A stretch of DNA of 64,000 nt from Olavius algarvensis associated proteobacterium Delta 3 (GCA_903231505.1 CAFBRK010000216.1:1-64000); one strand, 5' to 3'. Counted from the first letter of the stretch, positions 16,274 through 34,483 are shown. Program-made: numbers and translations. The notes: generated from the sequence alone by a model not told the origin.

Positions 16274-17254
16274 TCATAAATTGCGGACTTCCATCAAAGC
16301 GAGCAGCGCAGTCTCCTTCGGCATTCCCGGAGGGGCTGCTGAATCCGGGGTGATCCAGCGCTCGACGACCGTGTCGGTCGGAACACCGGGGATCCGGTAA
16401 ACCGACAGGGACCCGACCCTCTCTCCCACCCCCGGTGCAACAGGCAATTCTGCGGCGGGCGAGGCGTCCGGGTGTGACAGCATCACCATGTAGCTGCCCA
16501 AACTCTGCCGCCATTGGTGATCAGAACCACCGCCCGGGGGGCCCGTCACGGGTATCCGCTCGAAGAAGGCAACCTGTTGGGTTTGCGGAACCGCTTCCAT
16601 CACCTCCTCTAGCACGGCGCGACTGGTGGTAACCATAACCGTTGGTCCGTCCGGCGGTGCGGGTGGTTCCAACAGAAATAGACGCGCCCAGGCATTGAGA
16701 CGATCGACGGTCATAAACGCTCCCGGATCCTGGGGTATACCGATATCCGGTGAGGATCGGCCCGCTGCTGCCGGTTCCCCCTTTAGATCCTGAAAGAGCG
16801 CCGTCTCCAACTGTTCAAAGCTTCCCAGCTCGCTTTCAAGATCCGAGATTTTAGCGTCGTACATCTGGGCCATCTGCAAAAAAATCCGGGCCTTCTGCAA
16901 TGGATCCCTCTCCGTGGGTCCACGCCCTTTGCTGATTAATTCCGATCGGATGCGGGAGATACTGGTGTCGTCGTAGAACGGGACCGAATCCGCCTGGGAT
17001 TTCAGCCAGGCTATCTCGCTGCCGCGATGCACGGTGGCCCAGTCATGAAACTGCCGCAAGACCTCTCCCATCGCATCATCGTCCCCGGCAGCGCTTCGGT
17101 CCAGCACCAGGCGGCCATCCCGCTCCGCCTGGATCATACCCCCCGGAATCTCGAGCGCCGACGGCAGCAGCACATGGATCGGTTGAAAGCAAGCATTCAG
17201 CGCTTCGAGAGCGCTGTGCGATACGAACGTGAATGGAAAAAACAGGGTTCTCAT
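16274..17254 (-). CDS. Conserved-looking protein of unknown function
   Basis: This 326-residue protein is soluble, with no signal peptide and no domain I recognise. The N-terminal 60 residues (FVSHSALEALNACFQPIHVL) look like a folded module. Residues about 120-160 (QKARIFLQMAQMYDAKISDL) predict a helical, coiled-coil-prone segment. The C-terminal half has several proline-rich turns and a hydrophobic-strand pattern (MVMLSHP, SLSVYRIPG). It ends upstream of the ferredoxin gene and begins 75 bp after the CysK/CysRS-like gene stops, so it may be the last gene of the tmk-CysK/CysRS-like transcript. Function is unknown. Confidence 0.65.
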   Translation of the reverse strand: MRTLFFPFTFVSHSALEALNACFQPIHVLLPSALEIPGGMIQAERDGRLVLDRSAAGDDDAMGEVLRQFHDWATVHRGSEIAWLKSQADSVPFYDDTSISRIRSELISKGRGPTERDPLQKARIFLQMAQMYDAKISDLESELGSFEQLETALFQDLKGEPAAAGRSSPDIGIPQDPGAFMTVDRLNAWARLFLLEPPAPPDGPTVMVTTSRAVLEEVMEAVPQTQQVAFFERIPVTGPPGGGSDHQWRQSLGSYMVMLSHPDASPAAELPVAPGVGERVGSLSVYRIPGVPTDTVVERWITPDSAAPPGMPKETALLALMEVRNL

Positions 17255-17328
17255 AAATCAGCATCCGATGTCTGCACATTATGCCGAATCGCTTCCGGCG
17301 TTTCAGAGGCGCACCGTCGCATATTGAC

Positions 17329-19608
17329 CTAAACCCGTCGGTCTCTGACGTCCACGCCCATCTGGATCAATTGCTCACGGATAGCGTCGGCGCGCGCCCA
17401 GTTTTTTTCCTGCCGGGCATTGTCACGTTCAGTCAGAAGTTGCCGGACTTCCGGCGACAGGTAAAAATCCCCAAAATCGAAAATGTTCAACACCGTGTCG
17501 ATACCGCGAAAGGCATCGATGAGCCGTTCAGCCGCCTCCCGATCGATACGGCCGTCCTGAAGCAGGCTGTTGATGTGCCGAACGGAGTTGAAGACCGCGG
17601 CCATAGCCTCGGCAATATTGAGATCATCATCCATCGCGGTGGTGAATCCCTGCTTTAAATCGTAAATAAGCTGATCCAGTTCCGCGTAGGGACGATGATG
17701 GTCAACCGCGTTAAGCGAGCGGAGACAGGTATCGAGGCGCTTGAGGGCTCGTCCGGCATCGATCATCCGTTCTTTGGAAAAAAAGATGGACTTTCGGTAA
17801 TGGGTGCCCATCAGCCAGTAGCGGATTTCCCGATGGGTGTATCCCATGGCGGTCACATCCGACAACGATATCCGGGCTTTCTGGCGATCCGCGGTTTTTG
17901 AATCTTCATGGGCCGGATCGCAGTGCACCCAGTAACGCGCCAGAGGCTCTCCATTCAGCGCCGCAGCGATGGCAATTTCATTTTCGTGGTGCGGAAATGT
18001 ATGTTCCCGCCCTCCGGTGTGAATATCAAAACAGTTGCCCAAGTGCTTCATGGACATCGCCACGCATTGAAGGTGCCACGAAGGACGAACATTTCCCCAT
18101 TCGGTTTTTACGAAAATACCCCGTTTTAGCTCCGACAGCCGACAACGTTTAAACAGAGTGAAGTCCCGGGGGTTGTCCTTCTCATAGTCGTCCAGATCCA
18201 CCGTCGCACCGAGCTTGATTTTGTCCAGATCGATGCCGGAGAGCTTACCGTAATCGTTGAATCGGGATATGTTGAAATACAGCGACCGAAGCTTTTCGTA
18301 GGCAAATCCCCGTTTCACCAGCCGTTCGCCCATCGCGATCATGTCGTCAATGTGTTCGCTGGCCCGGGGATACACATTAGCGGGCAACAGCCCAAGTCCC
18401 GCCACATCCGAGTGAAATTCATCGATGTGGCGCTGTGTAAAGGCTTCCAGCGCCATCCCGGCCCGTTCGGATCCGGCGATGGTCTTGTCATCCAGGTCGG
18501 TGATGTTCATCACATGGATCGTTTTGTGGCCGCGGAATTGCAAATACCGCACCAGCAGGTCGGCAAACACAAAACGGCGGCATTCTCCGAGATTGATCCG
18601 GGCGTGGGCGGTCGGGCCACATGAATACACGGTGGCTTTGCCGACATCGATCGGTTCGAAGGGTTCCTTTGAACGGCTCAGGGTATTGTAGAGTTTAAGC
18701 GGAGTGATATGATGACGCGTCTCAAAAAGGGGGGTACTCAGGTATCGTTCCCCGCTGTCGGGTAAAATCGCGACGATCACACCCTGGTCGAGACCTTCGG
18801 CTTCTTTGCAGGCGATTGCCATGGCGGCGCCGCTGCTCATCCCGACAAACAACCCCTCCTCCCTGGCGAGGCGACGTGTCATCTGAAACGCCTCGTCATC
18901 TTCCACATGAACCTTCCGGTCTAGCCTTTTTTTATCAAAAATTTCAGGAGGATAAGATTCTTTTACATTTTTTAGCCCCTGAATCTTGTGTCCCAGATAA
19001 GGTTCGACACCCACGATTTGAATGTTCCGGTTATACTCTTTTAGCCGTCGCGCCATCCCCATCAGGGTTCCTGAAGTGCCGAGGGTGGCCACCAGGGTGG
19101 TAATGCGGCCTCCGGTTTGTTCCCAAACTTCCTCTGCAGTGCCGTGATAATGGGCTTTCCAGTTGGCCTCGTTGTTGAACTGATCGGCCATGAAATAACG
19201 ATCCGGATCTTCCCGGACCAACCGGTATACTTCCTCGATCGCGCCATCGGTACTCAGATGGCCCGGTGTCAGAAGTATTTCAGCACCCCGGGCCTCTAGA
19301 ATTTTTTGCCGTTCAATGCTGACCGATTCGGACATGGCAAGCAGCAGTCGGTAGCCTTTGACCGCACAAACCACCGCCAGACCAATGCCGGTATTCCCGC
19401 TGGTGGCTTCAATGACAGTTTTGTCCGGCGTCAATGCGCCCCTGGCTTCCCCGTCTTCCACCATGTACAGTGCGGCCCTGTCCTTGATGGAGCCGCCCGG
19501 ATTGAAGTACTCCAATTTGGCCAGAACCTGAACGTTCGGATTGGGATTTACCCGTCGGATTTCCACAAGGGGTGTGTTGCCGATGGTGTCGATGAGTGAA
19601 TAGCTCAT
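17329..19608 (-). CDS. Cysteine synthase fused to a degenerate cysteinyl-tRNA synthetase-like module
   Basis: This 759-residue protein joins two enzymes of cysteine metabolism. Residues 1-298 form a PLP-dependent cysteine synthase (CysK/CBS fold) with PLP lysine K42 in GGSIKDR, SGNTG at 70-74, the phosphate loop GTSGT at 177-181 and SSGAA at 258-262; it looks active. Residues 303-759 align collinearly with cysteinyl-tRNA synthetase, ending with the family's KNWARADAIREQL helix. The zinc ligands are kept (C330, C515, H540, E544), as is TFPHHENEIA. However, the HIGH position reads NLGE (339-342) and the KMSKS position reads TADRQ (572-576), with no change of spacing. Aminoacylation by this module is therefore unlikely; it may bind tRNA, cysteine or zinc, or channel product. 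A true CysRS must be encoded elsewhere. It lies 33 bp after tmk. Confidence 0.93.
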   Translation of the reverse strand: MSYSLIDTIGNTPLVEIRRVNPNPNVQVLAKLEYFNPGGSIKDRAALYMVEDGEARGALTPDKTVIEATSGNTGIGLAVVCAVKGYRLLLAMSESVSIERQKILEARGAEILLTPGHLSTDGAIEEVYRLVREDPDRYFMADQFNNEANWKAHYHGTAEEVWEQTGGRITTLVATLGTSGTLMGMARRLKEYNRNIQIVGVEPYLGHKIQGLKNVKESYPPEIFDKKRLDRKVHVEDDEAFQMTRRLAREEGLFVGMSSGAAMAIACKEAEGLDQGVIVAILPDSGERYLSTPLFETRHHITPLKLYNTLSRSKEPFEPIDVGKATVYSCGPTAHARINLGECRRFVFADLLVRYLQFRGHKTIHVMNITDLDDKTIAGSERAGMALEAFTQRHIDEFHSDVAGLGLLPANVYPRASEHIDDMIAMGERLVKRGFAYEKLRSLYFNISRFNDYGKLSGIDLDKIKLGATVDLDDYEKDNPRDFTLFKRCRLSELKRGIFVKTEWGNVRPSWHLQCVAMSMKHLGNCFDIHTGGREHTFPHHENEIAIAAALNGEPLARYWVHCDPAHEDSKTADRQKARISLSDVTAMGYTHREIRYWLMGTHYRKSIFFSKERMIDAGRALKRLDTCLRSLNAVDHHRPYAELDQLIYDLKQGFTTAMDDDLNIAEAMAAVFNSVRHINSLLQDGRIDREAAERLIDAFRGIDTVLNIFDFGDFYLSPEVRQLLTERDNARQEKNWARADAIREQLIQMGVDVRDRRV

Positions 19609-19641
19609 GGCTGAATTTCCGTTATCACCTCACGGGGCCTG

Positions 19642-20277
19642 TTATTCCGCCAGCTTACCGGACAGGATGGAAAGGATCCGGGCACGGACCTTTGCTCTGC
19701 TTTGCGATGCGTCGATGATCTGAAAACGATCGGGGTCTTTCTGGGCCCTGTCCAGATAGCCTTCCCGGACTTTTCTGTGGAAGCGGAGGTCCTCCTCTTC
19801 AAACCGGCTCTCTTCACTTTCCCGCTCCCCGTTGACGATGCCCTTCCAGGCGCGAGCAAGGCCGACCTCAGGATCGAGATCCAGAAGCAGTGTCACATCC
19901 GGAAGCAAATTATTAAATAGAATCCCGTGAAGCTGTTCAATCAAATCCACGTCCAGCCCCCGGGCGTATCCCTGATAGACCACGGTGGCGTCAAAAAACC
20001 GATCCGATACAACAACCCGATCCTGGGACAGGGCGGGGCGGACCAAGGCTTCCAGATGCTCGGCCCGGTCCGCAAAATAGAGCAGCAGTTCGGCTAACGG
20101 CGCCAGACCGGATGTCTGCGGATCCAGCAGAATGGATCGAATCTTTTCTCCGCTTCGGGTGCCGCCCGGTTCCCGGGTGACCGTGTAAGCAATCCCCCGG
20201 CCCTGCAGAAAATCTTCGATATAACCGATCTGGGTGGTTTTGCCGCAGCCTTCAATGCCTTCCAATGTGATGAACAC
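19642..20277 (-). CDS. tmk: Thymidylate kinase
   Basis: This 211-residue dTMP kinase makes dTDP for DNA synthesis and indirectly for dTDP-sugars. The P-loop is EGIEGCGKTTQ, the DR(E)P-type thymidine motif is TREPGGTRSGEKIR, DRFFDATVVYQGYARGLD follows, and the LID region carries basic residues. Length is normal. It is the first gene of the leftward tmk - CysK/CysRS-like pair. The upstream 320 bp is repeat-rich and separates it from the next operon. Confidence 0.96.
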   Translation of the reverse strand: MFITLEGIEGCGKTTQIGYIEDFLQGRGIAYTVTREPGGTRSGEKIRSILLDPQTSGLAPLAELLLYFADRAEHLEALVRPALSQDRVVVSDRFFDATVVYQGYARGLDVDLIEQLHGILFNNLLPDVTLLLDLDPEVGLARAWKGIVNGERESEESRFEEEDLRFHRKVREGYLDRAQKDPDRFQIIDASQSRAKVRARILSILSGKLAE

Positions 20278-20600
20278 TTCTGTTTGCCTGTTTGCCAGTT
20301 TAGCCGGTTGTCCAGTTCAACCTGTTGCAGCGGTCGGCCAGTAGCAATACTACTTTACCACGAAGCGCACGAAGAACACGAAGAAGCATATCGGTTTACC
20401 CATTTCTTCGTGACCTTCGCGTTCTTGGTGATTGTATAAGCTGGTTTGCCGGGTTGCCGGTGCGCCCTCGGCACACGGCATTTTTGGTTGTTATCCCTAC
20501 TCTTTCAGCTTTCAGCTTTTAACTTTCAACTCATGCACTATCCAGCATCCAGCATCCAGCCCGCCGGAGGCGGGTAAACCTCAGGTGGGCGGGCAAGCAT
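20278..20600. other. Repeat-rich intergenic region
   Basis: It contains an imperfect inverted repeat built from CACGAAG-type units (about 20352-20383 against 20404-20432), then short direct repeats TTTCAGC (20506-20520) and ATCCAGC in three tandem copies (20543-20563), and a GCCGGAGGCGGG palindrome-like stretch. No gene is visible. These are typical of dispersed intergenic repeat families. Confidence 0.6.
20352..20432. repeat. Imperfect inverted repeat of CACGAAG units
   Basis: The left arm is ACCACGAAGCGCACGAAGAA continuing CACGAAGAA. The right arm is TTCTTCGTGACCTTCGCG continuing TTCTTGGTGAT. About two thirds of positions pair. It could fold into a long hairpin in RNA or be a decayed mobile-repeat unit. 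Confidence 0.5.
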
Positions 20601-21560
20601 CTACCGATCGTCGTCGGTCTTGCCTTTGTAAAAATGCCTCCCGAGCACCCGATGGTAGGCCGTCCATGCTTCCCCGGGGTCCTGGGTTGCCATGAATTCT
20701 CGAACACCGTTTACTTTGGAGTCAATTTCGTCAATGTAGTGAAGCAAAAGGGCTTCGATGGTTTTCGGCGGTTCCGGGGAACCGAACTCCAGAGCCCCAT
20801 GGTGGCTGATGACCAAATGTTTGAGAAGAACGGCCAGCTCCTCCGGAAAGCCATCGATGTCCGCCAGTTTTTCGTCGATCATCTTCAATCCGATAACGAT
20901 GTGTCCGACCAGTCGACCTTCGTCGGAGTAGTCGATGTTGGTGTGATAATCGAATTCCCGAACCTTTCCGATGTCATGAAGGATGGCTCCTGCCAGCAGC
21001 AGGTCTCGGTTGATGCCGCTGTAATGGTGGGCCATGTTATCGGCCAGAACGGCCATGGACAGGCAGTGTTCCAGAAGCCCACCCACGTAGGCATGGTGCA
21101 TCATTTTAGCGGCAGGCGCCCGCTTAAAGGCGCTTACGAAATCCCTGTCGTCCCAGAACGCCCGGAGAAGGGCTTGAATCGATGGATCTTCAAGCCCATC
21201 GGTCATCTGAACCAGCCGTTCAAACAGGTGATCCACGTCATGTCGTGTTACCGGTAGAAAATCTCCGGGATCGACACTCTCCGGGGAACATTTTGCCATG
21301 GATCGGACGGTCGCCTGAAGATTGCCGCGATATTCTGTGACGCGTGCGGTCACCTGCACAAAGTCTCCGGAATCTGCCGCCGTCGCAATCCTCTCGACAT
21401 CGTCCCAGACCACACCGCCGATGGATCCCGTCTTGTCCGCCAGGGCCACCGTCAAATAGCTGTCACCATCTTTCTTTTGGGCCAGATTTTTTTCTGCCAG
21501 GACAAAGACATCATCGACCGCATCGCCCGGTTTCATATCGCTCACATACTGGTGTTTCAT
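20601..21560 (-). CDS. OB-fold/HD-domain nuclease, YhaM family
   Basis: This 319-residue protein has the YhaM 3'-5' exonuclease layout. An N-terminal OB-fold (about 15-100, with SYLTVALADKTGSIGGVVWD) binds single-stranded nucleic acid, followed by an HD domain (about 155-285) with HHAYVGGLLEH, the metal pair in AILHDIGK, and HLVISHHG. The family degrades RNA or DNA from the 3' end using manganese-type metals. The gene starts 3 bp after the giant GlmS-like gene stops, so the two share a transcript and probably coupled translation. Confidence 0.9.
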   Translation of the reverse strand: MKHQYVSDMKPGDAVDDVFVLAEKNLAQKKDGDSYLTVALADKTGSIGGVVWDDVERIATAADSGDFVQVTARVTEYRGNLQATVRSMAKCSPESVDPGDFLPVTRHDVDHLFERLVQMTDGLEDPSIQALLRAFWDDRDFVSAFKRAPAAKMMHHAYVGGLLEHCLSMAVLADNMAHHYSGINRDLLLAGAILHDIGKVREFDYHTNIDYSDEGRLVGHIVIGLKMIDEKLADIDGFPEELAVLLKHLVISHHGALEFGSPEPPKTIEALLLHYIDEIDSKVNGVREFMATQDPGEAWTAYHRVLGRHFYKGKTDDDR

Positions 21561-21563
21561 AGG

Positions 21564-24500
21564 CTATCCATTCCGTTTCGTGCCATTGACACTGGAACAG
21601 ATAAACTCGGCAATCTTCTCAGCCGATCGCCCAAACAGCTCTTCCAGCGGCAATAGCTCCAGATGAGAATCCTCCCAGGGGATACTGTTCTCATGAACGA
21701 GGTTCTGGATATGTTCGTATTTACCACCCAGGGCCTTCACTTTTGCCGTCAGCGGGACCTCCGACCGGAAACCGATATTGAGCAGCAACAGATACTCGAT
21801 GATATTGGGCCGGTCCGGCGATGTTGAAATAGCGGGAATAACCAGGATGCTGCGATTGTCCTTTCGCCCCTTTCCAATGTACACATTGCCCTGACGCACA
21901 ATAATCCGCTTGGTTCCCTTCAATCGGCGGTCGGTTTCCACCCGTGACGGGATGGGCTCCAGGACGCCGGATTTTTGGAGTACGTCAATGGTCGTCCCGT
22001 CGGTCAGATCGCCGAGTAGATTCAGGCCGTCGATACGGTAAAGAATCGAACCTTTTATGTTGCTGACGATCGACTGGAGGTTTTTGAGCACCAAGACATT
22101 CCGGTTGATCAGCTGCGACACGCTGATACCGTGAGCGTCAAGGGATTCGAAGAGAACCCCTTCGACCTTCTCTTCGAGGCGGCTGGTACCCACCGTGACC
22201 GTTTTGGCCTGGTGTTTGATCGCGTCCACCGGACGCGCCAGGCAGTTGATCGCTTCCCCCAGGCACTGGAACAGCCGGTCGAGCATGTTTCGGGCGGTTC
22301 CTTTAACTCTGAAATCGATTTCAAAATCCGAAACCGGCAACCGCCCGGCCAGGTACTTTAACAAAAGGGTCAGATCCGATGCGATTTCCACACCCATCAT
22401 TCCGGGCAGCTGTTTCTCGGACTTGACCTTCCGGAATTCGTTGTAGAATCGGGCGATGGATTCCCGAAATGTCTTTTCCAGCACGATCTCGAAAACATCC
22501 AGCCCATTGCGAGCAAACCGGGCCACCGCAGCCTGGATCTGCTGCCGATGCCGATACAGGAAACCGGAGGCGTCGTTGATGGACAGCGCCGCATAGTATC
22601 CCCAGATGTGGCCGACCAAGGTGTTGAGGATAGGGGCCAAGTGCTCACGGACCACCGGTATGTAAAAGATGTCTTCGGCATACGGCTCGAATCGCAAATC
22701 GCCGTCATCGGCAATAACCACCGGCAGTGCCTTGTGGGCCCGGAATATGGCCGTGTCTTTTACGATATCGCCGATAACCGTGCCGCGGGTCCCGGCGGCA
22801 CAGACGATGATCAACGGCTCGGAAGATAAATCGATGTGTTTTTTGTCCTCAACGAAATCCGAGGAAATCGTCTTGTAACACAGCTCGCTGAGCTTGATCC
22901 GGATTTCATCGGCTGCGGCTTTGTTGGGGCCGCTGCCCACCGCCGCCCAGTATGTGCGCTGAACCGCCAGTCGCCTGGCACTGGCGGCAATTTGTTCCCG
23001 AATGCCGAGAATCGAGCGCATGTGGTTCGGAATCGCCAGCAGCCGCTGGATTTCCTCGGCGATGAAGGTGCGCGTGCGACGCTCCTTGAGTTGGGCAACA
23101 AACAGACCCAATATCGCGCCGGCGATGATTTGCGAGTAAAAGGCCTTGGTGGAGGCCACCGACATTTCAATGTCCCTCCCGCTGCTGGTATACAGTGTGC
23201 CGTCCACCTTGAAGGTCAGGTCGGAATCCCTCCGGTTGACAATCGCCAGGGTGCGGGCGCCTCGCTCACGAACCATATCCACGGCCCTGTTGGTGTCGGT
23301 GGTGGTGCCGGATTGACTGATCGCAACGACCAGGGCGTCGGCCATGTCTCCGGCTCCGGCCTGTCCGAGCCGGAATCCGGACAATTCGGAGGCTTTCATG
23401 GCACTGATGTGCAGCGTCGGATCAGCCAGGTAGAAGTTCAGGATGTCGGCACAGGCCAGGGCCGCCACGCCGGCCGTACCCTGTCCGATAAAGAAAATGC
23501 GGCGAATGCGGTCTCCGACCACATCCTTCCGCAACGACGCCGGAAATACGGCCGTGTCGAGGCGAATCTCCGTGTGGGGAGTATCCCCTCCGCTGATTTT
23601 CCACCGATTCAGCAAGGTCCGTTCGACAGATTGCGGGGCTTCGGAAATCTCTTTCAGAAAATAGTGGGGATATTCCTGGCGATCGATATCACGGGAGGTA
23701 ATTTCGGTCTGCTTGACCTGTTCGGCGGTCAGCCGCAGCGGGGTCCCGTCATAGTAGCTGGCAGTGATCCCTTCCGGTGTCACCTCGGCCTCCTGATCGA
23801 GAATGAGAATCTGGCCCTGGGTCTGCCCCGCCACACCCTCGATCACGGCCTCACCGTCCATTTTAATGAATCGGGACGTCTCTTCGACAAAACCGTAAAC
23901 CTCGGAGGTGGCCATGAAATGATCCTCGGACAGGCCGACGAAAATGGTTTGGCCGCTGCCCTTCTGGGCGAGGTACAGTTTTCCCGGCGCCAGGTCTGTA
24001 TGCATGCTGATGGCATGGGAGCCCTCGAAGTCATTGACGGCGCAGCGGAACGCCTCTGCCACGGACTCCCCCTGCCGGAGGTATTTTTCGATCTGAAGGG
24101 GAATCAGTTTGGTGTCCGTGGTGATATCCTGGTGCAGCAAGACACCCTCGTTTTCGAGAGCCTTTCTGAGTTCCAGGTAATTGTCGATGTCACCGTTCAG
24201 GCAGACATGGATAATCGCGTCCTGTCTGGGCCCGTTGCCGACGGTGTCGTTGTCGACAGGGTGGCAGTTGGCTTCGCTGATGGCGCCGACGGAGGCCCAT
24301 CGGGTATGGGATAGAATGGTGGCATGCTGACGGGGAATGGTCAGGAGCCGATGCAGGATCGCATCCTGCCGGATCTGCTCTCGCAAAAAGCGGGGATTGT
24401 CTCCGAGACTGCCGATCTCGGCGGCCACCTTGTAGGCCATGGCCACGGAGTGGCGGACAGCTCCGTCTGCTTCAATTTTCCGGATACCGATGCTGCCGTT

Positions 24501-25376
24501 GACCAACACATCCCGTTGCATCCGGTCCGCTAACGCCTCTTTCAGGTTTTCCTTATCGATCACCGCCATGAACCGCTTATACGCTGGATCGTCCAGAGCG
24601 ATCATCAGAGAAAGACCGGCTGAATCTCTGCCCCGGACCTCCAACCGTTCGATGCTGTTGAGGACGGTGTTCACCCGTTGTAAAAAGGTCCGGGCCTCCG
24701 GGTCTCCAGGAACTCCGGCAGCGCCCATCAAATGGTCGAGTTTAGCGATATTGCCGATAATTTCCGAGTGGATGCACCATTTGGCATCCTTTAACATGTC
24801 TATCCGTGAGGTAATCGTATCGACGGAACGGGCATCGAGGCGGCCGATATCCGCCGCCAGCAGGGATGCCTCGGTGTCACAGATATGCCGGATGCGTTCG
24901 GCAGCCTCGCGAAGAGCGAATTTACATGGGTCGCTCGAAAATATCTCTTGAAACTGCCGAACGCCCTTCAATTCCTTGATGGCGTGAAACAGGGTTTCAA
25001 GGGAGTTATTTCCGCCGAGATAGCCGTCCTCCAAATCGGGCCGACCATCCCCAAACTTCTCCAATCCGCTTTGCTCGAGTTGCTCCAGAAAAGCCTCGAT
25101 CGCCCCCAGGTCTACCCCTTCGGACGTCGCCTCCCTGCTTTTGACAGCAACCAGCCCCGCGAGACCGCAACACAACAATGCCTGGCGGCAAGGAAACAGC
25201 ACAATCGATCCATCCGGGACGGTGGCGGTGTGACGTCCGGCATACACGCTGTAACGTCCCAACCGACAGATTCTGGCGCCCGCTCCGACGGCCTGCCGCA
25301 CCAGACGGCCTATTGGCGGCAACGGCAACCGGCACCACCTTCTCCACCGGGGGTATTTTTCATCGACGTTGTTCAT
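21564..25376 (-). CDS. Giant GlmS-like glutaminase/double-SIS protein (1270 aa)
   Basis: The core is glucosamine-6-phosphate synthase-like but twice the usual length. Class II glutaminase motifs are scattered: CGLAG at 70-74 (the catalytic Cys position), RGRDSAG at 248-254, HTRWASVG at 357-364, H372, NG at 394-395 and D421. A helical insert of about 170 residues separates the first two. SIS domain 1 (about 620-760) has SQSGTTTDT and VASTKAF. SIS domain 2 (about 800-930) keeps KLSE (E831, the GlmS Glu488 position) and H847. AKTVTV at 1057-1062 matches the GlmS C-terminal tail lysine loop, yet about 115 extra residues precede it and 205 follow. The candidate nucleophile C70 is not N-terminal, so activity would need processing or a different start; the 69 upstream residues look like real protein. 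kdnB lies just upstream. Confidence 0.88.
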   Translation of the reverse strand: MNNVDEKYPRWRRWCRLPLPPIGRLVRQAVGAGARICRLGRYSVYAGRHTATVPDGSIVLFPCRQALLCCGLAGLVAVKSREATSEGVDLGAIEAFLEQLEQSGLEKFGDGRPDLEDGYLGGNNSLETLFHAIKELKGVRQFQEIFSSDPCKFALREAAERIRHICDTEASLLAADIGRLDARSVDTITSRIDMLKDAKWCIHSEIIGNIAKLDHLMGAAGVPGDPEARTFLQRVNTVLNSIERLEVRGRDSAGLSLMIALDDPAYKRFMAVIDKENLKEALADRMQRDVLVNGSIGIRKIEADGAVRHSVAMAYKVAAEIGSLGDNPRFLREQIRQDAILHRLLTIPRQHATILSHTRWASVGAISEANCHPVDNDTVGNGPRQDAIIHVCLNGDIDNYLELRKALENEGVLLHQDITTDTKLIPLQIEKYLRQGESVAEAFRCAVNDFEGSHAISMHTDLAPGKLYLAQKGSGQTIFVGLSEDHFMATSEVYGFVEETSRFIKMDGEAVIEGVAGQTQGQILILDQEAEVTPEGITASYYDGTPLRLTAEQVKQTEITSRDIDRQEYPHYFLKEISEAPQSVERTLLNRWKISGGDTPHTEIRLDTAVFPASLRKDVVGDRIRRIFFIGQGTAGVAALACADILNFYLADPTLHISAMKASELSGFRLGQAGAGDMADALVVAISQSGTTTDTNRAVDMVRERGARTLAIVNRRDSDLTFKVDGTLYTSSGRDIEMSVASTKAFYSQIIAGAILGLFVAQLKERRTRTFIAEEIQRLLAIPNHMRSILGIREQIAASARRLAVQRTYWAAVGSGPNKAAADEIRIKLSELCYKTISSDFVEDKKHIDLSSEPLIIVCAAGTRGTVIGDIVKDTAIFRAHKALPVVIADDGDLRFEPYAEDIFYIPVVREHLAPILNTLVGHIWGYYAALSINDASGFLYRHRQQIQAAVARFARNGLDVFEIVLEKTFRESIARFYNEFRKVKSEKQLPGMMGVEIASDLTLLLKYLAGRLPVSDFEIDFRVKGTARNMLDRLFQCLGEAINCLARPVDAIKHQAKTVTVGTSRLEEKVEGVLFESLDAHGISVSQLINRNVLVLKNLQSIVSNIKGSILYRIDGLNLLGDLTDGTTIDVLQKSGVLEPIPSRVETDRRLKGTKRIIVRQGNVYIGKGRKDNRSILVIPAISTSPDRPNIIEYLLLLNIGFRSEVPLTAKVKALGGKYEHIQNLVHENSIPWEDSHLELLPLEELFGRSAEKIAEFICSSVNGTKRNG

Positions 25377-25413
25377 ATCTCTCTGTCTTTTCCGTGTTCA
25401 AGGGTCGCTGCCC

Positions 25414-27748
<2,335 letters not shown>

Positions 27749-27869
27749 GGGGGACTCCTTTCCCAGATAGTCTTGAGCCTGTTGAGCCGTCGTGCATCGC
27801 GAAACAGATCTCCGGTGATGACGCTGTAGAACGGATGAGACGGCTTCAGACGAACGCAATAGAAGCGGG

Positions 27870-28566
27870 CTACCCGGACGGCGCGGTCGGTGCCTGACTC
27901 CGGGAGACCTCAACGGTGTTGAAATACTGCCGGATGGTCATGCGGGCATACTCGGCAGCCCGTGTTCCGATATATTTTTCATGGGCGACGACCACCGATA
28001 CGGCCAATTGACGCTGGCCATCCCGCTGCCGGGCAAAGCTGATCCGTACAGAGATTCTCGGACCTGCGGGTTTTATCATAGCCCACCATGGACACAATCC
28101 GGCCGGAAGAAGGATCCATGGACACAATGCCGATGTGTTTCGATGTGGATGGGTCCAGTTTTCCGAGGAGAAACCGCTGCAGGGTCATGTTCAAGCTGGT
28201 ATCGATGACCACCGGGCGGTCTTCTATCACCAGATCCAGGCGTTTTTCCTCCGAATTCAGCACGGTGCCGCTGTTTAGAACCGCCTGTATCGCACGCTTG
28301 TCGATACGCGGCACACTCTCGGCAGCTGACGGTTGCAGTGAGGCATCCGGTGGGTGGGGGAGTGGGACATCCGTGCCGAGCCGGCTGGATCCCCCAAGGA
28401 TCCAAATGAGCGCGGACACGGCAAGCGCCGCCGCCATAAAGAAACCAACATATTTACCCCGACGGCGACCGGCGCCGGTCTTTTTCAAGTGGGCCTGGTA
28501 ATCCCGCCAGCCGGTTCTGCCAGAATAGGGGTCAGGGTAATTACCCGATCCGGTTCCGATGCTCAT
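27870..28566 (-). pseudogene. Remnant of a penicillin-binding transpeptidase protein with central deletion
   Basis: The 5' part (28566 down to about 28025) encodes a cytoplasmic tail, one membrane anchor (GFFMAAALAVSALIWIL) and the beginning of a transpeptidase-type domain (HIGIVSMDPSSGRIVSMVGY, then CTDQLCPAA). At about 28015-28030 the frame shifts to one that reads like the C-terminal end of the same kind of protein (QLAVSVVVAHEKYIGTRA, then a terminal helix) and stops at 27870. The whole catalytic centre (SxxK, SxN, KTG) is missing between the halves. The simplest reading is an internal deletion that also broke the frame. The gene lies between kdnA and metG on the same strand. Confidence 0.7.
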
Positions 28567-28628
28567 AAGCCCTTGGCATGGTCCTATAGAATTAACCGTA
28601 GATGCGTGCTGTGCCTCTCCAGGGCGGC

Positions 28629-30548
28629 TTATTTGATGGCCGTTCCGGGGTCGATGGGGCGATCAACGGTGACCAGGCTCAAATCGTCGTCTCCCACCGC
28701 CGCCAGAACCATCCCATTGGAGAGCGTCCCCATCAGTTTGGCCGGTTTTAGATTGGCCGCCACCACCACTTGCTTGCCTTCAAGGTCTTCGGGTCTGTAG
28801 CTGCCGGAGATACCGGCCACGATGGTCCGACGCTCTCCCATATCCACCTCCAGTTTCAGAAGCTTTTTGGCCCGGGGTATGGGCTCCGCCGTGATAATTG
28901 TCGCGACCCGGAGATCCACCCGCTGGAGCGTTTCCATGTCGATTTCCGGTTTCATCGTGAGACCCGCTTCCGAACCCGTTGCGTCGGACGCTTGAGCGGC
29001 ATCCGGTGGTTGTTCAATGCGCGGGAACAGGGCCACGGCTTCGGGAATACGGATGCCGGGCGGAAGCGTTCCCCAACGGGAAAGGGGATCCATCAGAAAA
29101 AACGGGGCATCCGGATCCTGCCCCAGGTGCTCCTGCATTTTTTTGGCCGTATCCGGCATGACCGGATAGATCAGACCGGAAACGATGCGCAGCCCTTCCA
29201 GCAGATGGTAGATCACCGTTGCCAGTTCTTTCCGGGCTGCGGGTTGTTTGGCCAGTTCCCAGGGCGATGTGACATCGACATATTTGTTCATCTGGCTGAT
29301 AAACGTCCATACGGCCATCATGGCTTTATGAAACTCAAAATCCTCCATGAAGCGCCGGTACTGCTCGAGGGCTGCGGCCGCATCCTGCGACAAGCGGATT
29401 CCGGAATCTGATCCGGCCTCTCCCATGGGTTCCGGAACGATGCCATCGAAATATTTTCGTGCCATGGCAATGACCCGGGAAAATAGGTTTCCCAGATCGT
29501 TGGCAAGGTCTGCATTGATTCGGCCGACAAGGGCATCCTCGCTGAAACTCGAATCGAGTCCGAAGACCATGTCCCGCATCAGAAAAAACCGAAATGCGTC
29601 AAGCCCGTATTTATTCTTTAAATTCAGAGGTTCCACAACGTTTCCGAGGCTTTTCGACATCTTGCTCTCGGCCACGTTCCAGTACCCGTGAACGTTGAGA
29701 TGGTTATATAACGGGATACCGGCGGCTTTGAGCATGGTCGGCCAATAAATGCCATGGGGTTTAAGAATATCTTTTGCCACGATATGCTGGGCGGCCGGCC
29801 AGAACCGGTCGAAAAGCTCCCCCCCGGGGTATCCGAGTGCCGACACGTAGTTGAGCAATGCGTCGAACCAAACGTATGTGACATAGTTCTCATCAAAAGG
29901 GAGCGTGAGACCCCACCGGAGTCGGGACTTCGGGCGTGAAATGCAAAGGTCTTCGAGGGGCTCCCGCAGAAAGGCAAGCACTTCATTTTTATACCGCTCG
30001 GGGCGTATAAAGTCCGGGTGCTGTTGAATGTGGTCGATGAGCCATTGCTGGTATCGACCCATTCTAAAAAAGTAGTTCGACTCCTTGATGGGCTCCGGTG
30101 CGACTTCATGGTCCGGGCACTTGCCGTCCACCAGTTCCCGTTCCGTGTAGAAACGCTCGCAGCCGAAGCAATAGAGCCCCGCGTACTCACTGAAATAGAT
30201 GTCTCCGGCATCATAAATCCGTTGAAGAATGTTTTTGACAACGGCCTTATGGGATGGATTGGTGGTCCGAATGAATTGATCGTAGCTGATGCGGAGCTCC
30301 GGCCAGAGGTCTTTGAAAAGACCGCTGAACTTGTCCACATAGCTCTGGGGCGTCATGTCTTCCCGCTGAGCCGCCTGCACGATTTTATCGCCGTGCTCAT
30401 CGGTTCCAGTTAAAAAATAGGTGGCGTCTCCTTTCATGCGATGAAATCTGGAGGTCACGTCGGCCAGGATCGTGGTGTACGCATGCCCCAGATGGGGTCT
30501 TGCATTGACGTAATATATCGGTGTGGTGATATAAAACCTTCCGCTCAT
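28629..30548 (-). CDS. metG: Methionyl-tRNA synthetase
   Basis: This 639-residue class Ia synthetase charges tRNA-Met. The HIGH-type motif is HLGH in NARPHLGHAYT, the KMSKS motif is intact in SKMSKSLGN, and a zinc knuckle reads CFGC with CPDH. A C-terminal EMAP/Trbp111-type tRNA-binding domain (RVDLRVATIITAEPIP onward) is included, as in dimeric MetRS. Start ATG overlaps the stop of ricT by 4 bp (ATGA), so it is translationally coupled to ricT and holB upstream. Confidence 0.97.
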   Translation of the reverse strand: MSGRFYITTPIYYVNARPHLGHAYTTILADVTSRFHRMKGDATYFLTGTDEHGDKIVQAAQREDMTPQSYVDKFSGLFKDLWPELRISYDQFIRTTNPSHKAVVKNILQRIYDAGDIYFSEYAGLYCFGCERFYTERELVDGKCPDHEVAPEPIKESNYFFRMGRYQQWLIDHIQQHPDFIRPERYKNEVLAFLREPLEDLCISRPKSRLRWGLTLPFDENYVTYVWFDALLNYVSALGYPGGELFDRFWPAAQHIVAKDILKPHGIYWPTMLKAAGIPLYNHLNVHGYWNVAESKMSKSLGNVVEPLNLKNKYGLDAFRFFLMRDMVFGLDSSFSEDALVGRINADLANDLGNLFSRVIAMARKYFDGIVPEPMGEAGSDSGIRLSQDAAAALEQYRRFMEDFEFHKAMMAVWTFISQMNKYVDVTSPWELAKQPAARKELATVIYHLLEGLRIVSGLIYPVMPDTAKKMQEHLGQDPDAPFFLMDPLSRWGTLPPGIRIPEAVALFPRIEQPPDAAQASDATGSEAGLTMKPEIDMETLQRVDLRVATIITAEPIPRAKKLLKLEVDMGERRTIVAGISGSYRPEDLEGKQVVVAANLKPAKLMGTLSNGMVLAAVGDDDLSLVTVDRPIDPGTAIK

Positions 30549-31360
30549 TTCCGGCTTTTCTCCTTGGCAATGGTAAACTGGTTCAGCCCTTTTTCGACGA
30601 TGGCTCCGGTTTCGAGCTTGATGGATACACGACTGCAGATGACGTTGAGGCGGACTATTTTACCAGTGCCTTCACCGGTCACTACCGATGTCCCCACCCG
30701 CGGGTAGTTTTCCTTCAACTTCTGATACGTCGCATTTTCGTAGTTCAAACAGCACATGAGCCGGCCGCAAAGTCCGGAGATCTTTGTCGGATTCAATGAC
30801 AGATTTTGCTCCTTGGCCATGCGGATGGATACCGGTTCAAACTTGTCGATGAACGTGGAACAGCACAACACACGGCCGCATCGTCCAAGACCCCCACACA
30901 TCTTCGCCTGGTTGCGGATACCGACCTGTCGCATTTCAATGCGGGTTCGGAACTTCTTGACCAGCATCTTGACGAGCTGCCGGAAGTCGACCCGTCCCTC
31001 GGCGGTGAAAAAAAAAGTCAAACGGCTGGCATCAAAGGTACTCTCCACCGAAAACAGGTTCATCTCCAGATCGAGATCCCGGATGCACGCCATGCAAAAC
31101 TCGTGGGCAACCGCTTCGGTCCGGCGGTTTCTTTCCTGCTGTTTGAAATCCTGCTCGGTGGCTAACCGATACACCTTTTTCTGGGGTCGTTTATCTCCGT
31201 TTTTATCCAGAGGCCTCGGTGCTACGGCCACTGTTCCGAAACCGAGCCCCTTCTCAGTCTCCACGATCACGCGCTCGCCCGGCTTCAGAACAAATGCGCC
31301 GGGATCGAAATCGTATATCTTACCTGTCGGTTTAAACCGAATACCAACAATTTTGGTCAT
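30545..31360 (-). CDS. ricT: PSP1-domain protein RicT/YaaT
   Basis: I start this 271-residue protein at MTKIVGIRFKPTGKIYDF, which follows GGGAAGTGATAACC. The PSP1 C-terminal domain contains the family's cysteine cluster MCGGLGRCGRVLCCS and GLCGRLMCCLNYE. In Bacillus RicT (YaaT) is part of the Ric complex, which carries iron-sulfur clusters and promotes mRNA maturation; in other phyla its role is less clear. The order holB-ricT is the same as in many Firmicutes and delta-type genomes, which supports the call. It overlaps metG by 4 bp. Confidence 0.9.
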   Translation of the reverse strand: MTKIVGIRFKPTGKIYDFDPGAFVLKPGERVIVETEKGLGFGTVAVAPRPLDKNGDKRPQKKVYRLATEQDFKQQERNRRTEAVAHEFCMACIRDLDLEMNLFSVESTFDASRLTFFFTAEGRVDFRQLVKMLVKKFRTRIEMRQVGIRNQAKMCGGLGRCGRVLCCSTFIDKFEPVSIRMAKEQNLSLNPTKISGLCGRLMCCLNYENATYQKLKENYPRVGTSVVTGEGTGKIVRLNVICSRVSIKLETGAIVEKGLNQFTIAKEKSRK

Positions 31361-31407
31361 GGTTATCACTTCCCGTCCGGGTTCCACAACAACGCCGTGG
31401 ATTCCCG

Positions 31408-32427
31408 TTATCTGTCTTGTCGGATCATTTTCATCGCCAGCACCTCCAGGGTAACCCGTGGATTGGTATTGGCACGAAGCTGTTTCTGTGCCGTCTCGAT
31501 GGCCGTTAACACGCGCTGGATATTCCCCGGGGGCTGGCGGCTCGCGGCGATTTCGACAATTTCCGCAAGATCGCGGTTTACGATCCGCTCGGGGCGATGG
31601 GGCCAGACAGCGAGGTCCCTGTACCAGGTTTTCAGAATTTCAAGGGCATCCTCAACGCTGTTTTTATCTTCGGAAAGCTGCCGGGCAAATGCCAGACTCC
31701 GCACCATGGAATTAGCGTTCAGGGACTCCGCTTGCTGTATCAGCCAACTTCGACGGCGTATCCACCCGGCCTCGCGCATGCCAAGGGCCTTTGTCACACT
31801 CCCTAGTGAAATCGCCGCCAGAATCGCCGCTTCCGACACATCCATCCCGTGCCTCTGCACGAGCAACGCTGTCAGCGATTCCATGGAGATCGGCCGAAAC
31901 GCCACATGCTGGCATCTGGAGGAAATGGTCGGCAGCAGGTCCGAAGCACCCGAGGCAGTCAATATCAGCAGTGTTTGGGCCGGCGGTTCTTCGAGGGTTT
32001 TCAGCAGTGCGTTTCCTGCCTCCGGGGTCATGACATGCGCATGTGACACAATGGCTGTCCGATACACCGCTTCATAAGGTTTCATGGCCAAGGTGTGCAC
32101 GAGATCCCGGATTTGCTCGATTCGGATCAAGGACCCTTTGGGCGTGACGTGAACCACATCCGGGTGGGTATCGGCGGCAATTTTTCTGCAGGCAGAACAC
32201 GTCCCGCAAGCATCCAGCGGCCCACGCGCGTCCTGCTTGGAAGATAGGCGTTCAGAGGATAGAAACGTGCAGTTGCAGGCCATGGCAAAGGCCAGGGCCG
32301 CTGTCCGTTTACCCACGCCGTCCAGGCCGGTAAACAGCAAGGCGTGGGGGATGTTTCCCTGTGTAAGAAACGCTGTTAACAGCCGGACCGCCCGCTGTTG
32401 ATCCCTTATCGATCCAAATCCAGGCAC
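31408..32427 (-). CDS. holB: DNA polymerase III delta-prime subunit
   Basis: This 339-residue clamp-loader subunit has the P-loop-like GLDGVGKRTAALAFA, a zinc module with CGTCSACRK plus an upstream cysteine, and SSRCQHVAF (the SRC arginine-finger motif) within its AAA+ core. It helps load the sliding clamp on DNA. It starts just downstream of the damaged HU/IHF gene (gap of 4 bp) and is followed by ricT and metG, forming a housekeeping operon. Confidence 0.93.
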   Translation of the reverse strand: MPGFGSIRDQQRAVRLLTAFLTQGNIPHALLFTGLDGVGKRTAALAFAMACNCTFLSSERLSSKQDARGPLDACGTCSACRKIAADTHPDVVHVTPKGSLIRIEQIRDLVHTLAMKPYEAVYRTAIVSHAHVMTPEAGNALLKTLEEPPAQTLLILTASGASDLLPTISSRCQHVAFRPISMESLTALLVQRHGMDVSEAAILAAISLGSVTKALGMREAGWIRRRSWLIQQAESLNANSMVRSLAFARQLSEDKNSVEDALEILKTWYRDLAVWPHRPERIVNRDLAEIVEIAASRQPPGNIQRVLTAIETAQKQLRANTNPRVTLEVLAMKMIRQDR

Positions 32428-32431
32428 AACT

Positions 32432-32619
32432 CTAATAGTTGACCCGTTCTCTGAGTTCCTTTCCTGATTTAAAAAAAGGCAAGCGCTTCGGCTTGATCAG
32501 CACTTTCTCTCCCGTCTTCGGGTTTCTGCCGGTATAACTGCGATAATTCTTCACATAGAATCGGTCTTGGATATGCCGGCCTCCTCCTTCAAGGCAGCGA
32601 TGAGTTCAAGTTTGTTCAT
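32432..32619 (-). pseudogene. HU/IHF-family gene with internal deletion
   Basis: The first 18-20 codons read [20 protein letters not shown], the N-terminus of an IHF/HU-family DNA-bending protein. After SM the frame meets TGA at once. In the next frame the DNA continues as [20 protein letters not shown] and then [18 protein letters not shown], the beta-arm and C-terminal helix of the same family. About 25-30 codons from the middle (dimer core helices and the first strands) are missing and the frame is broken at about 32556-32566. A strong ribosome-binding site (AGGAGGGCTT) and a promoter remain, so the message may still be made. Confidence 0.85.
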
Positions 32620-32693
32620 AAGCCCTCCTATCTGATCGAAAGCCGGCCGGTAACCGTTCAAAACCCGGTGCTCGAAATATCCACAGGATGACT

Positions 32694-32722
32694 TTATAAT
32701 ACAAAACTTTATTGAAAGTCAA
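32694..32722 (-). promoter_or_regulatory. Promoter ahead of the HU/IHF remnant
   Basis: On the minus strand TTGACT (32717-32722) is followed after 17 bp by TTATAA (32694-32699), about 75 bp before the HU/IHF start. It could now drive holB-ricT-metG. Confidence 0.55.
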
Positions 32723-32726
32723 GTAG

Positions 32727-33248
32727 TTATGATAGAACCCGCGGCAGAATCTCGATGTCTTCCGCCTGAACTTCGACCCCGGCATATTGACCAAGGGCCT
32801 CGATGTCCACCAAGACCCGGCCCCGTCCATGGTAGCGTACGAAAACGCCACACACTCCGGCAAAGGGTCCGGCCACGACCAGGACCGGATCACCCTTTCG
32901 AAGCCGTGTGCCGGTCTTCACCGGCTGGTCTGTGGCCACCATGATCTTCAGGGAGTCGACGGTCTGATCCGATACCGGTATCGAGCTCTCTTTGGTGCCG
33001 ATGAGTTTGACGGCACCGGCTGTTTTCACGATTTCCAGGTGCTCTGAAGGGTTTAGATCCGTTTTGACAAAGACATAGCCCGGAAACAGAGGGATCCGGA
33101 TCATCGCTTTTCGATCCCGGCGGCGACTGCGGACCTTGATCTTGGGCAGAAACACCTCGAATGACTTTTTGATCAGCCCCTCGTTGACGACATTCTCGAA
33201 TCGGCTTTTGGTGTGCAGCACGTACCAGAATCGTTCTAGTTTATCCAT
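32727..33248 (-). CDS. NusG-paralogue transcription antiterminator (RfaH/UpxY type)
   Basis: This 173-residue protein has a NusG N-terminal domain (FWYVLHTKSRFENVVNEGL, then IPLFPGYVFVKTDL) and a C-terminal KOW domain (RKGDPVLVVAGPFAGVCGVF). Specialised NusG paralogues of the RfaH/UpxY type bind RNA polymerase and let it read through long polysaccharide or LPS operons. Its position ahead of sugar and LPS genes suits that role. I start at MDKLERFWYV. The housekeeping nusG normally sits with secE and ribosomal genes, none of which are here. Confidence 0.88.
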   Translation of the reverse strand: MDKLERFWYVLHTKSRFENVVNEGLIKKSFEVFLPKIKVRSRRRDRKAMIRIPLFPGYVFVKTDLNPSEHLEIVKTAGAVKLIGTKESSIPVSDQTVDSLKIMVATDQPVKTGTRLRKGDPVLVVAGPFAGVCGVFVRYHGRGRVLVDIEALGQYAGVEVQAEDIEILPRVLS

Positions 33249-33343
33249 GATCAACAATCCAACCCGTTTCATTCCTCAAGAGGCTGTTGCTCCCGGAAAA
33301 TGGCCGGAGCCCCGCCACCGCAACCGCGTGCTTTCCGAAACAC

Positions 33344-34483
33344 TCACGCACTGTCGTGCGCCTGCCGGATAACCTGGAGCTGTTTCATGTGCGTTTCAGC
33401 GTAATCCAGAATATCATCCAAATCATTTTGATGATGCAGGTAGTCCCAGTATTGGCCGATGCTGTCACGAACGTCGCGGGTGGGTTCCCATCCGAGTCCG
33501 CGCAACCGCTGAATGTCGGAAACGATATTGCGAGTGTCGCCGTACCGGTAATACCCGGCCACTATGGGACTCACGGATTTTCCCGTCACCGTTTCCATGG
33601 TATCGTAAAAATCGAGGACGGTCCAGGGTGTGCCTCCCCCCACGTTGAACATGCGGTAATCGGCGTCTGGGTGTTTCAGGACCAGGATATTGGCATCGAC
33701 AACATCGGCGATATTGACAAAATCACGCACCTGTTGACCATCCTCATAGATGATGGGCTGTCGATCGAACATCAGCGACAGCGCAAAAATGCGCATGGCT
33801 CCGGAGTAGGCATTATAAAACGACTGACGGGGGCCCTGCACGATGGAGTATCGCATGACCGTAGTCGGGATGCTGTAGCGTCTTCCGAGCTGCAAAGCGA
33901 TCTGTTCCTGGGAAAACTTGGATATCGCATACGGATTGCAGGGGCGGACCACCCCCTCGTCGGACGGCATCCATGTGAGGATCTCCTGGCATGTCGGGCA
34001 CCGATGATCCCAATTGCCCCGGGAGAGCTGTTCCTCGAGCCGGATGTCGGGATAAATATACCGGCCGTCCTGCGGGTAACAGCGCGGGCACTTGTAGCGG
34101 CCCTCGCCCATGACGGCCTGGCTGGCGGCGACAATCACTTTTTCAACCGTTGCCTGCGGTGCGTTTTCGACCAGCACTTCGTACAACAAGGCCGTCGACA
34201 CGCCGTTCACATGGAAAAATGTCGAAAAATCGGTGAGGTAATCCTGATAGGCCGCAAGGTGATAGACCGCTTGCATGCCGTCCAGGGCCTTCTGCCAGGA
34301 CCGCTTGTCCCGGACGTCACCATGCATGAACTCGGCATCCGGATGGATGTAATCGGGGGCCCCTTTCGGGTGCACCGTTTCCTGGAGGTTGTCCAGAATT
34401 CGGACCGAATGCCCCAGGGCAATAAGGGCATCGGCCGTGTGGGATCCGATGAATCCGGCTCCGCCGGTGATCAGGATGCGCAA
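33344..34483 (-). CDS. NAD-dependent sugar epimerase/dehydratase with zinc-ribbon insert
   Basis: This 379-residue extended SDR enzyme starts MRILITGGAGFIGSH (NAD-binding GxxGxxG). The catalytic YxxxK is YAISK. Between the active-site serine region (AASQAVMGEG) and YAISK lies an insert with two CxxC pairs, CPRC and CPTC (about residues 134-172), likely holding zinc; the same arrangement occurs in dTDP-L-rhamnose 4-epimerase-like proteins. The usual VYG of this strand is VMG here. A nucleotide-sugar epimerase for LPS or exopolysaccharide is likely; the substrate is not proven. rfbACD elsewhere in the window would supply dTDP-rhamnose. The start is preceded by GGAGGGAAC. Confidence 0.88.
   Translation of the reverse strand: MRILITGGAGFIGSHTADALIALGHSVRILDNLQETVHPKGAPDYIHPDAEFMHGDVRDKRSWQKALDGMQAVYHLAAYQDYLTDFSTFFHVNGVSTALLYEVLVENAPQATVEKVIVAASQAVMGEGRYKCPRCYPQDGRYIYPDIRLEEQLSRGNWDHRCPTCQEILTWMPSDEGVVRPCNPYAISKFSQEQIALQLGRRYSIPTTVMRYSIVQGPRQSFYNAYSGAMRIFALSLMFDRQPIIYEDGQQVRDFVNIADVVDANILVLKHPDADYRMFNVGGGTPWTVLDFYDTMETVTGKSVSPIVAGYYRYGDTRNIVSDIQRLRGLGWEPTRDVRDSIGQYWDYLHHQNDLDDILDYAETHMKQLQVIRQAHDSA

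Follow-up and report, generated by a model that had tools for sequence, protein, structure and literature searches.

We found a giant, divergent member of the glucosamine-6-phosphate synthase (GlmS) family in a 64,000-nucleotide stretch of DNA from Olavius algarvensis associated proteobacterium Delta 3 (GCA_903231505.1, CAFBRK010000216.1:1-64000; here called the window, and its source organism the host). The gene, glmS-L, is on the minus strand at positions 21564-25376, begins with ATG and encodes 1270 residues. We think it likely that GlmS-L is the main or only glucosamine-6-phosphate synthase of the host, that it is made as a pro-enzyme and cut before an internal cysteine, Cys70, and that it carries a sensor-like C-terminal domain. 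The textbook enzyme GlmS makes the first building block of the bacterial cell wall; it is usually essential and serves as a drug target.

GlmS-L appears to be the main GlmS of the host

The strongest evidence that GlmS-L makes glucosamine-6-phosphate is its distribution, because this complements that of canonical GlmS and of NagB. We searched 58 genomes of the host's order with GlmS-L and with the canonical GlmS model TIGR01135. GlmS-L matched a protein in 56 of the 58. The match in one genome (G006) was an ordinary 614-residue GlmS, so the giant is present in 55. These giants are mostly 1150-1300 residues long and 42-63% identical to GlmS-L. TIGR01135 scored above its cut-off in G006 alone, the genome that has canonical GlmS and no giant. 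Two genomes (G021 and G042) had neither protein, and they were the sole NagB-positive genomes in the order (matches at G021:C13:46806-47513 and G042:C6:336-671). The NagB frame in G042 is ~60 bp from glmM and on the same strand; glmM was detected in 55 of the 58 genomes. NagB in other organisms interconverts glucosamine-6-phosphate and fructose-6-phosphate, and the pattern suggests that in these two genomes NagB may run toward synthesis and take the place of GlmS.

The same complementarity was found outside the order. The giant was present in 31 of 247 genomes sampled from the phylum. We searched another 26 giant-bearing genomes from the phylum and 34 from many phyla for canonical GlmS, and it exceeded the cut-off in one genome of each set (G238 and G304). 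All control genomes (14/14) scored above the canonical cut-off in these searches. In a set of 85,000 species, at least 560 confirmed loci encode relatives. Among 80 retained loci, the taxa were Thermodesulfobacteriota/Deltaproteobacteria, Alphaproteobacteria (Azospirillum, Niveispirillum, Ahrensia, Oricola), Pseudodesulfovibrio, Acidimicrobiia/Actinomycetota, Planctomycetota, Myxococcota, Eremiobacterota, Armatimonadetes, Riflebacteria and an Acidobacterium. As a large number of the genomes are metagenome bins, individual phylum assignments are provisional. A plasmid search with a divergent family member found no relatives.

From its distribution, GlmS-L appears to be the host's main GlmS. The initial annotation, made from the DNA sequence of the window, had instead proposed an unknown amino-sugar or regulatory role. 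Such a paralogue, acting on another amino sugar or as a regulator and possibly tied to Kdo8N synthesis through kdnAB, would fit the kdnA-kdnB neighbourhood that is kept in many genomes, and it would fit three active-site changes described below (S303A, T76S and H77V in E. coli numbering). However, almost all giant-bearing genomes are without canonical GlmS, the giant is swapped one-for-one with canonical GlmS or NagB, and it spans phyla with quite different cell envelopes. We therefore regard a different job as very unlikely.

GlmS-L has the landmarks of GlmS in a chain about twice as long

The reading frame and its motifs bear out the initial annotation, which had described a 1270-residue GlmS-like protein with all GlmS landmarks. 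CGLAG starts at Cys70, with Cys69 directly preceding it, and is followed by HTRW (residues 357-360), ISQSGTT (686-692), KKH (845-847) and AKTVTVG (1057-1063). All features below are on the minus strand. The glutaminase (class II GATase) domain, with its inserts, comprises residues 70-560 (23697-25169). One insert, residues ~80-240 (24657-25139), is long and modelled as helical; it lies between the cysteine strand and RGRDSAG and was found in every aligned family member. The distance from the cysteine to the arginine of RGRDSAG is 178 positions in GlmS-L compared to 25 in canonical GlmS. The isomerase half (residues ~565-931; 22584-23684) has two SIS domains, with SQSGTTTDT and residues E824, K828, E831 and H847. 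A helical insert (~932-1047; 22236-22583) precedes the equivalent of the GlmS C-terminal tail, residues 1048-1063 (RPVDAIKHQAKTVTVG; 22188-22235), which contains the putative Schiff-base lysine, K1058. The tail ends the chain in canonical GlmS, whereas 207 residues follow it in GlmS-L.

The initial annotation had estimated the extra residues at ~170 inside the glutaminase, ~115 before the tail and 205 after it. The last two figures are close to what we found (~113 and 207). The first is too low: in a structural alignment, residues 1-239 of the E. coli glutaminase correspond to ~490 residues of GlmS-L, or ~250 extra in several inserts.

GlmS-L is not a chance open reading frame, as homologues with the identities given above extend over almost its full length across the order. 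Nor is it a chimera or an assembly artefact, since dozens of genomes, including single-contig ones (e.g., G011 and G055), share this architecture. Only SIS and GATase_6/7 exceeded the Pfam cut-off in GlmS-L. The best NCBIfam model was PRK00331 (261.3 bits, cut-off 381), and TIGR01135 gave 240.7 bits (cut-off 418). Because both scores are under the cut-offs, we place GlmS-L, by sequence, on a divergent branch outside the present GlmS equivalog model.

The active site is almost fully conserved. We aligned 51 giants and mapped their residues to E. coli GlmS numbering through the canonical GlmS of G006. In the glutaminase, Cys70, R248, R359, W360, H372, N394, G395 and D421 (E. coli Cys1, Arg26, Arg73, Trp74, His86, Asn98, Gly99 and Asp123) were identical to canonical GlmS in 51/51 giants. 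The same was true in the isomerase of Q688, S689, T692, S742, E824, K828, E831, A1057 and K1058 (Gln348, Ser349, Thr352, Ser401, Glu481, Lys485, Glu488, Ala602 and Lys603). D251 (Asp29) and H847 (His504) were invariant in a set of 29 sequences. The position of Ser347 was Ser in 43 giants and Thr in 8. The catalytic roles of the mapped residues are established for E. coli GlmS.

A structure model superimposes on GlmS. We modelled residues 43-1242 with AlphaFold from a 63-sequence input (mean predicted local distance difference test score, pLDDT, 87.7). The model matched E. coli GlmS (1jxa) with Z 45.2 over 597 of 608 residues (model positions 28-1021 on 1-608) and human GFAT-1 with Z 45.5 over 618 residues. 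In the superposition, Cys70 coincides with Cys1 of E. coli GlmS and G1063 with its final residue (608). Cys70 (codon 25167-25169) thus stands for GlmS Cys1, in line with the initial annotation's view of CGLAG at residue 70 as a buried catalytic cysteine. In the model, the inserts in the glutaminase and ahead of the tail are mainly helical.

The extension ahead of Cys70 is conserved, was gained once and has been lost repeatedly

We found that the extension consists of two parts. Residues 1-42 (25251-25376) are the variable, basic N-terminal part; in all but 2 of 60 orthologues, the segment in this position carries a net positive charge. Residues 43-69 (25170-25250) are the conserved pro-segment, whose 27 positions align without gaps up to the cysteine in 61 distinct extended sequences from two phyla. 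The initial annotation had suggested looking for such conservation in orthologues, and it is present. Counting back from the cysteine, the 61 sequences have an aliphatic residue at -26 (61, Phe counted), Gly at -23 (54), Arg or Lys at -22 (56), hydrophobic residues at -12 to -9 (61), Phe at -9 (58), Pro at -8 (61) and a hydrophobic residue at -2 (61). Position -1 (P1) varies. The pro-segment had no Pfam match, and no similarity to a known family was found.

The cysteine is internal in most Desulfobacterota members and at three planctomycete loci (L179, L185 and L197); elsewhere it follows the start codon. A wrongly annotated start, with translation beginning at or near the cysteine, would agree with the eight of 58 order genomes that do begin at Met-Cys. 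However, there is no start codon immediately ahead of the cysteine in the window or in most relatives. No ATG, GTG or TTG occurs within 15 codons of the cysteine in 40 of 64 extended members, nor within 30 codons in 20 of 64. The extension must therefore be translated. The upstream codons are also conserved as protein, in strict register, in two phyla. Given the scarcity of start codons and the conservation of the pro-segment we reject a mis-called start, which we consider hardly credible.

The extension was gained once and lost about six times. In a tree of 129 rows, built from the core region without the columns of the extension, the extended members form one clade, and the Met-Cys form recurs inside it at about six separate places. 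The fewest changes in extension state on this tree was 8, compared to 38.7 with shuffled labels. After every loss, a start codon immediately precedes the same cysteine. The simplest reading of these losses is that the mature enzyme begins at Cys70, or its equivalent, in all extended members. Orthologues without an extension had been named in the initial annotation as a finding that would speak against processing. They do occur, in the eight genomes above, but as secondary losses at the same cysteine, and as such they favor processing at Cys70.

We propose that GlmS-L is translated with its extension, that the final ~27 residues serve as a pro-segment, and that the chain is cut immediately before Cys70. 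As with PurF, the enzyme would most likely make this cut itself, exposing Cys70 as the glutaminase's N-terminal nucleophile. Ammonia set free by the glutaminase would reach the isomerase site of the two SIS domains. There, H847 and the tail lysine K1058 would work on the sugar phosphate in the manner of E. coli GlmS. In this way GlmS-L would make glucosamine-6-phosphate from fructose-6-phosphate and glutamine, as the cell's main or only source for peptidoglycan and lipopolysaccharide.

It is also conceivable that GlmS-L is a GlmS whose extension stays on, with the glutaminase inactive or latent and free ammonia used, or that another protease removes the extension under regulation (a zymogen). 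In favor of this are the length, conservation and specificity of the extension, and the presence of NagB in both GlmS-less genomes leads us to infer that ammonia could serve as a nitrogen source in the order. However, the key residues of the glutaminase (Cys, R, D, R, W, N-G and D) are invariant, which would be unexpected if they were unused, and wherever a lineage has lost the extension, its protein begins precisely at Met-Cys. The variable P1 fits self-cleavage and is unlike what a sequence-specific protease would select. An uncleaved or separately cleaved extension is thus unlikely, and self-cleavage before Cys70 remains our preferred interpretation.

The C-terminal domain is a putative sensor domain

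The C-terminal alpha/beta domain (residues 1064-1270; 21567-22187) is predicted to have a PAS/GAF/Cache-like sensor fold. Modelled separately, residues 1055-1270 had a pLDDT of 95. The top structural match was the N-terminal segment of a 180-kDa glutamate dehydrogenase (7jsr; Z 9.0, 167 residues, root-mean-square deviation 4.8), which is modest evidence for a common fold. The next matches were GAF, PAS and Cache sensor domains (Z 5.5-6.6). The best Foldseek E value was 6.6e-3, and there were no convincing sequence relatives in the PDB (best E 0.26). We conclude with moderate confidence that the domain is sensor-like (PAS/GAF). It would most likely sense a metabolite and tune activity, which predicts allosteric control.

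The helical inserts and the C-terminal domain are features of the family. In Pseudodesulfovibrio/Desulfovibrio members (L153-L156 and L166; ~940 residues), the chain stops 6 residues past the AKTVTVG tail, without the sensor-like domain. The domain is therefore dispensable in nature.

Weighing the interpretation

Several observations weigh against GlmS-L as a self-processed, regulated, main GlmS. One genome, G238, carries both a giant (1277 residues) and a full canonical GlmS (616 residues, 802 bits), on contigs C29 and C30. Three residues are changed in 51/51 giants: Ser303 to Ala, Thr76 to Ser, and His77 to Val, Ile or Met. These substitutions indicate slightly different phosphate and glutamine pockets in the giants, and kinetics could be altered by S303A, which is at the phosphate site. 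The model has low confidence over the pro-segment (pLDDT 47-58). Catalysis by GlmS-L, cleavage and its autocatalytic nature, and C-terminal regulation are features that we infer, and a search of the open-licence literature found no giant-family enzyme with measured activity or a solved structure.

Second large GlmS-like frames (1130-1819 residues) also occur in about nine of the 58 order genomes, the host included. The host's second protein is 1518 residues long, starts with MCGIVTYFGG (L226:1613-6169, minus strand; G000:C255 ~25112-29668), and has GATase_6 and SIS matches and a long C-terminal region. Its active site is divergent (SWSSTT, HGRWA and no KH motif). This type is too patchy to be a general GlmS. 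For the host genome, "sole GlmS" thus means the sole one with an apparently intact active site.

A broader reading is more tentative, and we hold it to be rather doubtful. GlmS-L would represent an anciently split class of glucosamine-6-phosphate synthase, the sole GlmS in at least 8 phyla. In Desulfobacterota and some Planctomycetota it would be a zymogen, in which the pro-segment blocks the glutaminase until a cut before Cys70, triggered by folding or by a signal. The ligand of the sensor domain would provide feedback, and the first step of envelope synthesis would be under proteolytic maturation.

Comparison with known enzymes

GlmS-L shares with canonical GlmS/GFAT (EC 2.6.1.16; E. coli GlmS 1JXA, human GFAT-1 6R4J) the glutaminase and two SIS domains, the N-terminal-type cysteine, and the equivalents of E481, K485, E488, H504 and tail Lys603. 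It differs in being about twice as long, with ~23-25% identity in the structural alignment, and in adding helical inserts, a domain beyond the tail and a pro-segment ahead of the cysteine. NagB-II/SIS deaminases and phosphosugar isomerases have the same double-SIS fold (Z 30-36). These enzymes have no glutaminase, whereas the giants retain both the glutaminase and the tail.

PurF/GPRATase of B. subtilis and plants has, like GlmS-L, an N-terminal extension ahead of the catalytic cysteine, but its acceptor domain is different. PurF-type enzymes shed an N-terminal propeptide autocatalytically to expose the cysteine, which in Arabidopsis GPRAT2 is Cys87 (PMC7056826). Large (180 kDa) glutamate dehydrogenases are central enzymes extended by PAS/ACT-like putative sensor domains (PMC8175468). 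GlmS-L would resemble them in this putative sensor-type enlargement, but the catalytic cores are unrelated.

We looked in the open-licence literature for a GlmS of unusual length or with a propeptide and found no relevant paper, which is a weak negative. We know of no GlmS with a described propeptide. Provisionally, we consider the giant family previously undescribed. Whole orders, in several phyla, would have this divergent, double-size protein as their sole GlmS. A core step is therefore overlooked or misnamed there by automated annotation and in metabolic models, because GlmS-L scores below the curated GlmS cut-offs. If our interpretation is true, the internal cysteine and pro-segment would make this the first GlmS, as far as we found, that needs processing. 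The roughly six natural losses of the pro-segment provide a ready comparison set for its purpose.

Genomic neighbourhood and related observations

Two conserved neighbors are upstream of glmS-L, both on the minus strand: a kdnB-like iron-containing dehydrogenase gene (25414-26538) and a kdnA-like DegT/DnrJ/EryC1 aminotransferase gene (26558-27913). Among the 55 giant loci, many of which end at contig ends, kdnB was found in 18, kdnA in 16 and metG in 28. In many genomes kdnA-kdnB is directly upstream on the same strand as the giant, with metG farther upstream; one kdnA sits elsewhere on the opposite strand. In G011, the stop codon of kdnB overlaps the start of the giant frame. The kdnBA adjacency pointed out in the initial annotation is thus conserved, and a role in amino sugar supply for the envelope fits this synteny, the link being one of position only.

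The initial annotation had also coupled glmS-L to the adjoining downstream gene for a YhaM-like OB-HD exoribonuclease (20601-21560, minus strand). This pairing is local. Only within the host's family is the giant found with the YhaM-like gene, tmk and cysM-cysS, and the YhaM-like gene is present at just one other locus. We reject a functional link with the nuclease, as the adjacency is not kept beyond the family.

We found no GlmU above the cut-off in the 58 order genomes. The model match was restricted to the uridylyltransferase half, in frames of ~250-315 residues (e.g., L227:1083-1850; G000:C284 ~36082-36849). The acetyltransferase step in the order is therefore probably done by a separate protein.

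No GlmS ribozyme or other known RNA reached the gathering score within positions 17000-33500. Upstream of glmS-L, positions 26558-32427 (minus strand) contain co-directional holB-like, PSP1-like, metG, hypothetical and kdnA genes, followed by kdnB, and the order metG-kdnA-kdnB-giant recurs in many relatives. On the other side, a single 759-residue open reading frame (17329-19608, minus strand) encodes a fusion of a cysteine synthase (PALP, residues 7-284) and a cysteinyl-tRNA synthetase (residues 317-757). G001, a relative from the host's family, has a homologue in the same place.

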